NCBI GenBank assembly: GCA_027030425.1
Contig: JALVEW010000010.1
Coordinates: 1 to 48,079 of the forward strand
Reading direction: 5' to 3'
Origin: Sedimenticola sp.
GTDB lineage: Bacteria > Pseudomonadota > Gammaproteobacteria > Chromatiales > Chromatiaceae
DNA: 48,079 nt
Shown here piece by piece: positions 22,536 through 24,491 of the stretch. How positions within the stretch are numbered: position 1 is the stretch's first letter; the number at the start of each line of letters is the position of its first letter. Under the pieces are notes generated by a model. The model had not been told where the DNA came from. It did not search any database and was given only the letters and a program-made list of their open reading frames with translations. The translations under genes were made by a program, and so were the position numbers.

Positions 22536-22561
22536 GCCGGGGGCTCATCGAGGCTCCCGGC
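22536..22561. terminator. Hairpin terminator between ATPase and kinase genes
   Basis: GCCGGG (22536-22541) pairs with CCCGGC (22556-22561), with inner GGC/GCT pairs making about 9 bp including wobbles. TTGTT follows on the plus strand. It lies just after the ATPase stop and overlaps the end of the convergent kinase gene, so it could terminate the plus-strand operon. Confidence 0.5.
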
Positions 22562-23837
22562 TTGTTCCTCTCAACGCAATGAGCGCCGACCCATGGGCGG
22601 GTTTCCCATGTGAGGCCGCCCTCACCGGCACTCCCAGCATGTCCTGGCGTATCTTTTCCCAGGTTTCATTCCCGGCTCCGGCGCCGCTGGTCATTACCTT
22701 CCGGGGATAACCGGCTCCCAGTTCTTCCAGACGCCGGTAGCCCAGTTTCTCGATGCGGGCGATGCCTTCCAGCATGCCTTGCAGGAAACGGGTTCTGTCC
22801 CTGGGGACAGGGGCAAGGCGCGGTTGTTTCTGCGGATCGTTGAAGGGGAAGCGCTCTCCGGGAGCGGGCAATGGATAGTATTCCAGGCAGGAACGCCTCT
22901 CCGGGTGAATTCGGCGGCTCAGCGCCTCGATTTCTGCGTCGGTGAAATGCCGGCGCAGCACGGCGCCGCCGCTGTTGGAGGCGCCCCCCGCCAGCCAGCG
23001 GCCAAAGATGCGATGGCTGTAGATGCCGTATCGGGGCGCCTGCACCGGGTGGTCCACCAGGATTTTGCATACCAGGGTGCTGCCCAGGGAAGTGAGGGCG
23101 TCGCCGGGGTGCTCGAGGCTCGCAGCCAGGGCGGCGGCGGTGCTGTCCGTGGTGCCGGCCACTACCTGGCAGCTGCCAGGCAGTCCCGTATGGGAAGCGG
23201 TGTCGACGCTGATCCGGCCCATGGGACTGCCCACGGGAAGCACTTGGGGAAGCAGGGTGGAGGGCAGATCCAGCTGTTTCATCCAGGCGGGCCAGTCCTG
23301 CTGCCGGGGGTCGTAACCCAGTTTCAGGCAGTTGTTCTCGTCTCCCAGTCCGAGCCGCCCGCAGAGCCTGCCGCTGACCCATTCGCTCTGGTGCAGGGCC
23401 AGGGCGTGGCGAGGGATGACGCCCTGCTTCTTAAGCCACAGCAGCTTGGGCAGGCTGGCGCCAGGACTGAGGATGGCCGTCTGATCCGGCGCCAGGGAGG
23501 CCAGCTGCCGGGCTTCCTTCAGGGCTCGCCGGTCGTCGTACATGATGCCGGGGCTCAGGGGATGTCCCCGGTCATCACTGAGCAACAGGGTGCCGGAGGT
23601 GCCGTCCAGGGCGATGGCCCGGATTTCATGACCCCTGGTGGCGCCGGCCAGTTCCGTCAATACGGCCAGAACCGCCTGCCACCAGTCGTCGGGGTTCTGC
23701 TCCGACCAGTCCGGCCTTGGATGCCTGGAAGGGGGCAGGGTGCGGCTGGCAGCCGCCAGTTGCCGTCCCTGAGCGTCGATGCACACACCGCGGCAGCCGG
23801 AGGTGCCAAGATCCAGGCCGATAAAGGCGTGGTTCAC
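22545..23837 (-). CDS. FGGY-family carbohydrate kinase
   Basis: 430 residues from a GTG at 23837 (VNHAFIGLDLGTSGCRGV); a TTG at 23843 is the alternative. LDLGTSG is the first phosphate-binding motif, WSEQNPDDWW is typical of the family and VAGTTDSTAAALAA is the second. GGASNSGGAVLRR and MTSGAGAGNETWEKIRQDMLG complete the C-terminal domain. Members phosphorylate sugars such as xylulose, ribulose or glycerol, and the substrate is not readable here. The frame continues upstream through the hairpin array, but that part has no kinase homology. No sugar transporter is near. Confidence 0.9.
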   Translation of the reverse strand: MNHAFIGLDLGTSGCRGVCIDAQGRQLAAASRTLPPSRHPRPDWSEQNPDDWWQAVLAVLTELAGATRGHEIRAIALDGTSGTLLLSDDRGHPLSPGIMYDDRRALKEARQLASLAPDQTAILSPGASLPKLLWLKKQGVIPRHALALHQSEWVSGRLCGRLGLGDENNCLKLGYDPRQQDWPAWMKQLDLPSTLLPQVLPVGSPMGRISVDTASHTGLPGSCQVVAGTTDSTAAALAASLEHPGDALTSLGSTLVCKILVDHPVQAPRYGIYSHRIFGRWLAGGASNSGGAVLRRHFTDAEIEALSRRIHPERRSCLEYYPLPAPGERFPFNDPQKQPRLAPVPRDRTRFLQGMLEGIARIEKLGYRRLEELGAGYPRKVMTSGAGAGNETWEKIRQDMLGVPVRAASHGKPAHGSALIALRGTSREPR

Positions 23838-23849
23838 TCTCAAGGGGAT

Positions 23850-23994
23850 GTCGTAAAAGCCCTTCCCTGGGCTTTCACGACTCGAAATCGGAAAAGTGCG
23901 ATTTTCCGATTCCTCCATTTTCAATGGCTTACCGCCATCGAAAATGGCGATGCGTCCCTGCATCGCGGAGGCTGTCGCCTTTTGCGACACCCTC
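23850..23994 (-). other. Array of five contiguous hairpins between queF and the kinase gene
   Basis: Plus-strand coordinates of the stems are: 23850-23862/23869-23881; 23886-23895/23902-23911 (extends by a wobble and a G-C); 23915-23928/23934-23947; 23947-23953/23960-23966; and 23968-23978/23984-23994 with one internal mismatch. The array covers about 145 nt with almost no unpaired bases between hairpins. In the first three stems every non-Watson-Crick pair is A.C on plus, hence G.U on minus, so the structure belongs to minus-strand RNA, the direction of queF and the kinase. It could be a composite REP-like element, a structured leader or a small RNA. Confidence 0.85.
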
Positions 23995-23995
23995 G

Positions 23996-24385
23996 TCAGG
24001 GCAGGGTGACCGTCTGGGGAGGCTGCCAGTCCGGGGCGCGGTGCTCGGCCACCACCGTGGTGTAGATGCCGCCGCGCACGTTGAACTCCGCCGTCAGGCG
24101 CATGAAGCGGGGCTGGGTGGCTGCCACCAGATCATCGAGAATCCGGTTGGTCACGGCCTCGTGGAAGGTACCTTCGTCGCGGAAGGACCAGACATACATT
24201 TTCAGGGCCTTCAGCTCCACGCACAGCCTGTCTGGCACATATTCCAGATGAAGCTCGGCGAAGTCCGGCTGGCCGGTCTTGGGACACAGGCAGGTGAACT
24301 CGGGAATGCGGATGCGGATGGTATAGTCGCGCTCCGGCTGGGGGTTGTCGAAGGTTTCCAGTTCTTTGCTGGGCTGGCTGGGCAT
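23996..24385 (-). CDS. queF: NADPH-dependent 7-cyano-7-deazaguanine reductase
   Basis: 129 residues, the short unimodular QueF type. It reduces preQ0 to preQ1 in queuosine synthesis using the tunnelling (T) fold. The nucleophile is C34 in [12 protein letters not shown], and the acid is D41, seven residues on as in B. subtilis C55/D62. The E(S/L)KALK substrate-binding motif is seen as [18 protein letters not shown] near-perfect -10 and a ribosome-binding site lie upstream. folE2, another T-fold enzyme, occurs at 32162. The kinase follows after the hairpin array. Confidence 0.96.
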
Positions 24386-24417
24386 GGTTGTTGCTCCGGG
24401 GAAAATTCAATGGCGGG

Positions 24418-24423
24418 ATTATA
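24418..24423 (-). promoter_or_regulatory. queF -10 element
   Basis: On the minus strand TATAAT matches the sigma70 consensus perfectly, 33 nt before the queF ATG. The -35 about 17 bp upstream is weak (TTCCTG). A CGGAG-type ribosome-binding site follows. Confidence 0.5.
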
Positions 24424-24491
24424 CCGGAGCCGCGTTTCCGCAGGAATGAATTTCCCGGGGTTGGAAAAACGCGCTGGCGGCGCAAATAACA

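Follow-up and report, generated by a model that had tools for sequence, protein, structure and literature searches.

A probable MITE-like element with putative CsrA-type hairpin loops between queF and a carbohydrate kinase gene in Sedimenticola sp.

Five adjacent hairpins separate queF from a kinase gene

What is the strongly folding block that lies between queF and the gene of a FGGY-family kinase in Sedimenticola sp.? The window analyzed here is a stretch of 48,079 nucleotides (contig JALVEW010000010.1, positions 1 to 48,079 of the forward strand). An earlier note on it described about 145 nt between the two genes as five contiguous hairpins whose imperfect pairs point to an RNA of the minus strand, and proposed a repeated composite element, a leader or N-terminal extension of the kinase, or a small RNA. 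The features of the locus, all on the minus strand, are as follows.

22545..23837, minus strand: gene of a FGGY-family carbohydrate kinase, probably starting with the GTG at 23837; co-directional with the element and downstream of it
23850..23994, minus strand: whole mobile element copy of the A subfamily, about 145-150 bp, from the BLAST family of its own genome and a covariance model match
23850..23881, minus strand: P5 hairpin, the left terminal inverted repeat, 13 bp, loop CAGGGAAG
23862-23869, minus strand: second GGA site, a candidate CsrA-type motif in the loop of P5
23884..23913, minus strand: P4, 12 bp, stem top A-rich/U-rich, loop of the form YCRCRY
23916..23946, minus strand: P3, a long hairpin without GGA, in which lineages differ on both sides of 12 of 13 modelled pairs
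23947..23966, minus strand: P2, 7-bp stem, hexaloop AGGGAC, C-G closing pair
23953-23960, minus strand: putative CsrA/RsmA-type motif CANGGANG of P2, position counted from the P2 coordinates
23968..23994, minus strand: P1 hairpin, the right terminal inverted repeat (GAGGGTGTCGC...); end hairpins are also found in other lineages
23996..24385, minus strand: queF (QueF-like), stop codon 1 nt from the element

Folding confirmed adjacent stems across 23850-23994, which read P1-P2-P3-P4-P5 along the minus strand, the RNA sense of this copy. The minus strand of 23846-24012 reaches -91.6 kcal/mol against a mean of -51.6 for shuffled sequences (z -9.3; 0 of 200 shuffles as good), and the plus strand gives z -7.2 in the same comparison. 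The minimum-energy fold is a series of separate adjacent hairpins, not one stem-loop formed by end-to-end pairing. On the family model, which comprises P2 to P5, all 45 pairs of the window copy form on the minus strand, 42 as Watson-Crick pairs and 3 as G.U, with no mismatch; P1, which lies outside the model, contains one mismatch, which is G.G on the minus strand and C.C on the plus strand. The covariance model scores the copy at 138 bits on the minus strand versus 28.5 bits on the plus strand. All three imperfect pairs that had been named are indeed A.C on plus and G.U on minus; since all three would agree by chance with a probability of 1/8, this wobble point is weak taken alone.

The block is one copy of a dispersed repeat

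The suggestion of a repeated composite element was borne out by a search of the organism's own genome (2.84 Mb, 278 contigs). With the window block as query we obtained 40 matching places (75 first-look candidates, 40 of them scored). A sister copy used as query returned 62 rows, 22 of which are opposite-strand matches inside places already known, while the other 40 add 14 new ones. The total thus stands at 54 places, whole or partial, among them at least one pair at contig ends that could be two parts of a single locus.

The copies form two subfamilies of common architecture, A, which includes the window copy and has the ends AGGATGTCGTAAAAGC / GCGACACCCT, and B, with the ends CAGGATGTTGAAAAA / TTTTTCAACAGCCTG. 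At about 150 bp between inverted ends, the element is too short for a transposase gene. B copies are flanked by YTAR-like 4-nt direct repeats that are exact in 9 of 23 cases and differ by one mismatch in 11 more (20/23 with at most one mismatch), against a chance level, estimated from mispaired ends, of 9% exact, 35% with one mismatch and about 45% with at most one. The window copy shows an imperfect target duplication, CCCTGA/CCTTGA (5/6 identical), at a junction that reads CTGCCCTGA - element - CCTTGAGAGTGAACC.

Several A copies adjoin another repeat. By eye, 4 of 9 full A-type copies (L002, L004, L007 and L009) are enclosed by the two arms of CCCTCTCCC...GGGAGAGGG-like palindromes; a further three (the second copy of L009, L005 and L010) adjoin one arm of such a palindrome; some are flanked by short CCTTGGG- or CCTACAGG-like repeats. 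A second repeat family may therefore be a preferred target of the A subfamily. In two 44-bp palindromes (L165 and L166, at G000:C43:5049-5092 and C222:13767-13810), B ends enclose just one P5-like loop, which in one case retains ATGGAA; these are probably internal deletion derivatives.

Empty sites in congeners identify an insertion

In 8 of 14 congeners (G003, G004, G005, G006, G009, G011, G012 and G014) queF is followed directly by the kinase gene with no element between them; in G004 the likely kinase GTG lies, by eye, 2 nt past the queF stop codon. Other sequence adjoins queF in G001, G007, G008 and G010, and G002 gave no queF match.

These empty sites bear on the proposal that the block is a leader specific to this locus, or an N-terminal extension of the kinase. 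The open frame through the element is real: it reaches 51 codons beyond the kinase start on the upstream side, to an element-borne GTG located 5 nt past the queF stop codon and in frame, so that a 51-codon extension of the kinase by re-initiation is possible as far as the sequence goes. As an account of origin, however, both the leader and the extension are refuted by the eight congeners that join queF to the kinase gene without the element, and the same sequence is present at dozens of other loci. We consider a dedicated leader or extension extremely improbable. Because the element is multicopy, has empty sites in congeners, carries inverted-repeat ends and, in the B subfamily, shows a YTAR-like duplication, we read it as a MITE. 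The window case is an ordinary insertion at its locus, but of an unusual element family. In G013, another species of the genus, a B-type element (L147) lies directly beside queF, which looks like a separate insertion event at this end of the gene.

The fold is conserved beyond the class

BLAST detected the element in 22 of 92 genomes, own genome included. A covariance model (R1) raised the number to 57 carriers, the own genome again counted, among 274 genomes of the class (Gammaproteobacteria, judged by SMC relatives); they represent 44 of 222 genera, and 18 of the 57 have at least 13 copies. With a second model (R2), 48 of 299 genomes across the phylum proved to be carriers, and 43 of these belong to other classes. 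Because the GGA letters contribute to the score in both survey models, the matches are biased toward copies that keep GGA. Two queries gave no match on plasmids, and 80 named SMC-gene loci yielded only two weak matches, both from Thiohalocapsa.

Whether homologues keep the stems was answered by strong covariation. In 39 rows from 36 genomes, aligned by fitting to the family model, 38 of 45 pairs have changed on both sides and 96.5% of cells are paired, with a covariation score of 0.572; shuffles give 0.19, and sliding the partners by 1-3 columns gives 0.05-0.12. A structure-free MAFFT alignment of 10 rows still gave 20 such pairs and a score of 0.363 (0.17 for shuffles, 0.05-0.12 slid). The set from other classes (A7, 12 rows, one of which is a weak antisense match) gave 34 of 45 pairs and 0.560 (0.16 for shuffles, 0.06-0.10 slid). 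Antisense covariance model matches below 40 bits in A5 and A7 were taken as artefacts and are outside the representative counts. By these alignments, the predicted fold is kept beyond the class while IS5-like ends and most stem pairs were replaced, the latter compensatorily.

Different ends on the same inner hairpins

The same inner hairpins are found with lineage-specific ends (GGAAGCTCTGA, CAGGCTGTTGAAAAA, GAGGGTGTCGCAAAA and GGGGACCTTGAAAAA). G316 contains a 1.2-kb insertion sequence with a DDE_Tnp_1 transposase and the ends GGGAAACGCTGA, and each end of the element in this genome is 1 of 12 letters off the GGGAAACGCTGA end of that insertion sequence; we take the insertion sequence to be of IS5 type. 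In the own genome of the window copy, no match to a PF05598 (DUF772) or PF01609 (DDE_Tnp_1) transposase was found, so the mover is either missing from this genome, a transposase of a different kind, or located in unassembled sequence. Most probably, the element would have been moved by an IS5-type transposase supplied in trans. Inspection by eye of about 90 nt at each end of the insertion sequence in L210 revealed no such inner hairpins.

Two conserved loops resemble CsrA-binding sites

The P2 loop reads CANGGANG in 38 of 39 aligned rows, the remaining row being short of one N. Within C-A-N-G-G-A-N-G the six fixed positions are invariant (39/39) and both N positions vary. We folded 41 representatives, 40 of which gave four hairpins; the one with five was dropped. 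GGA occupies the apical loop of P2 in 40/40 folds and of P5 in 38/40, and that of P3 and of P4 in 0/40; outside the class the counts are 9/11 for P2 and 11/11 for P5. Its absence from P3 and P4, together with the free N positions, is an internal control for the lean of the GGA-scoring models. The P2 hexaloop is open in 16 of 40 predicted folds, and most of the others close an inner A-U pair. P5 is looser than P2: among the 39 rows, 38 retain the first G and 38 the second, 37 retain the two together in the alignment used, and all 39 retain the A; the first loop base varies, and a strict hexaloop forms in 7/40 folds. Among close copies of the B subfamily the GGA letters vary less than other columns (3/142 versus 184/2803, p 0.03); among close A copies the figures are 3/90 and 90/1785 (p 0.62, not significant). 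The loop N positions are the most variable among close copies, with 21/95 changes in B and 12/60 in A.

According to the excerpted text of PMC7652899, the SELEX consensus for CsrA is RUACARGGAUGU and RsmE recognizes an ANGGAN hexaloop. Because the P2 loop matches both this consensus and the hexaloop, we interpret it as a candidate CsrA site; three rows match the SELEX string exactly. At 7 bp, the P2 stem is longer than the stems of most SELEX ligands, which in the same excerpts mostly have four bp or fewer.

These loops belong to what we regard as the probable identity of the block: a MITE-like element without transposase, inserted between queF and the kinase gene, with a fold of the minus-strand RNA in which the P2 and P5 loops are predicted to dock CsrA. 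As an alternative, the host could have domesticated the copies as small RNAs or could maintain them as CsrA sponges, in the manner of CsrB or RsmY. Such a role would suit the two GGA hairpins per copy and the dozens of copies, and in an Rfam search of 12 other loci at E up to 1 the only match was RsmV on L189 (E 0.49; 17.6 bits versus a cut-off of 100). Several observations speak against it. The window has 0 Rfam matches at gathering score, and a known Rfam RNA was rejected as identity on this ground and because RsmV is far under its cut-off elsewhere. No sigma-70-like promoter was found in 23700-24450, where two terminator-like stems compare with 0.7 expected, which leaves the stand-alone small RNA of the earlier note unsupported. 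Moreover, each unit has two GGA sites and not many, and the copies decay in a neutral-looking way. We consider host-kept sponges very unlikely.

A Shine-Dalgarno mimic was also considered as the meaning of GGA and rejected, because loops such as CACGGATG and CATGGATG occur.

The P4 loop has a form of its own. YCRCRY is kept with few exceptions in the 39 rows (8 are one base shorter; L252 departs from it) between A-rich and U-rich arms, and the apex of the window copy at 23892-23905 reads AAAA-UCGCAC-UUUU, the YCRCRY form being kept across lineages. Pairing of the P4 loop with P2 as a kissing interaction was examined by eye and dropped as inconsistent.

CsrA in carrier genomes

The own genome encodes one CsrA. 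Within the class, carriers and non-carriers do not differ, with a CsrA match in 50/57 and 185/217, respectively. The seven class carriers without a CsrA match are G064, G149, G179, G219, G238, G251 and G293, of which G251 is 98% complete. Outside the class, CsrA is found in 41/43 carriers versus 20/37 non-carriers (p 1e-5, uncorrected for kinship, with the first 37 non-carriers in listing order as the comparison set). In the complete block G328-G385, the counts are 14/14 carriers versus 20/37 non-carriers (p 0.002). At the family level outside the class, the element is present in 4 of 10 families with CsrA versus 0 of 10 without (p 0.087). This association outside the class is consistent with the CsrA reading, although it is not proof. 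In family f191, most tested members have both CsrA and the element; the well-covered G370 and G374 have neither.

Strand preference and the level of selection

Across lineages, wobble pairs in P2-P4 favor the RNA sense, with 46 G.U cells versus 8 A.C; 26 rows lean to G.U, 1 leans to A.C and 12 tie. Counted as distinct states, the wobbles are 16 G.U versus 7 A.C (p 0.09). Copies within genomes give another picture. B copies of the own genome have decayed to G.T 49 times and to A.C 48 times, with no preference; for A copies of the own genome and congeners, using a consensus fold that includes some flank pairs, the counts are 19 and 30. Orientation relative to the upstream neighbor, taken from crude gene calls for 48 copies, shows no bias: 19 are sense and 22 antisense, with 7 unknown. 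As copies show neither a G.U preference nor an orientation bias, it is apparently the spreading lineages that are under selection, and most single copies drift. The claim that the pairing pattern reflects selected RNA structure thus holds for the family, through covariation and the minus-strand wobble, and decay does not show such selection on the window copy.

G.T is favored over A.C in single-stranded DNA as well, so that wobble cannot separate RNA from single-stranded DNA of the same strand. This leaves room for an ordinary MITE in which the inner hairpins persist because of a role at the DNA level (as single strands or cruciforms, in transposition or replication) and the GGA loops are passengers. 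The anatomy of terminal inverted repeats and target duplications agrees with such a DNA-level role, as do the absence of wobble preference and orientation bias among copies and a wobble pattern that fits DNA equally well. On the other hand, P2-P4 are not the ends of the element, no comparable hairpins were seen by eye at the ends of the L210 insertion sequence, and the loops are kept strand-specifically as CANGGANG with two N free, which is the consensus of a protein-RNA contact. This consensus favors the RNA reading of the predicted loops over the DNA reading. We regard the DNA-level explanation as unlikely.

Proposed mechanism and relation to known elements

In the RNA reading, selection would act on the fold as a minus-strand RNA, whose loops in P2 and P5 would dock the dimeric regulator CsrA (RsmA). 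The window copy would be transcribed together with queF and the kinase gene, inside their mRNA. Its insertion would break the tight spacing between the queF stop codon and the kinase start and bring two candidate CsrA-type sites into the intercistronic RNA, the GGA of P5 being located about 25 nt upstream of the kinase GTG. Across the genome, copies that are transcribed would bring CsrA sites to many mRNAs and could also titrate the protein. A broader interpretation, which we advance tentatively and hold to be somewhat short of probable, is that of a phylum-wide mobile family with a conserved CsrA-docking RNA, repeatedly re-clothed in different IS5-type ends and writing CsrA sites into mRNAs.

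Like the bacterial MITEs ERIC, Correia/NEMIS, RUP and the Coxiella QMITE, the element is small, multicopy and devoid of transposase, with terminal inverted repeats and a target duplication; in the excerpted texts, bacterial MITEs have stable RNA structure and some are transcribed (PMC2229807, PMC10969869, PMC5896051). Most ERIC/Correia-type MITEs form one stem-loop by end-to-end pairing, as described in the excerpts of PMC2229807, whereas the window family has five separate hairpins. Unlike these MITEs, it keeps a covarying architecture across classes and two conserved GGA loops. The word CsrA has 0 occurrences in the excerpted texts of PMC2229807, PMC10969869 and PMC5896051, and no description of a MITE with CsrA sites was found in the open-access literature searched by title or start of abstract. 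With CsrA/RsmA sites and the RNAs CsrB, RsmY and RsmZ the family shares a GGA in an apical ANGGAN hexaloop, often with at least two sites per RNA in the part of PMC7652899 at hand. It differs from these RNAs in being carried on a mobile repeat with two sites about 80 nt apart and two other hairpins between them, as well as in the promoter and Rfam results given above. Its ends, close to GGGAAACGCTGA and GGAAGCTCTGA, and its 4-nt YTAR-like target sites resemble those of IS5-type insertion sequences, from which it differs by having no transposase gene and by inner hairpins that were not seen by eye at the ends of one such sequence.

If the RNA binds CsrA, transposition could rewire the regulons of a global post-transcriptional regulator, and a large hidden pool of CsrA sites would exist in genomes that hold tens of copies. 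The same reading, if true, would explain why a multi-hairpin RNA fold is kept over at least two classes in a transposase-less element despite the replacement of its ends and stems.

Two composite arrangements were observed among the copies. In L197 (773-946, G316), the P4 loop of an element copy is split by another hairpin repeat, which we take to be REP-like; REP and REPIN sequences are associated with RAYT transposases. L189 (1501-1871, G075) carries three element copies in tandem, with a further partial copy upstream.
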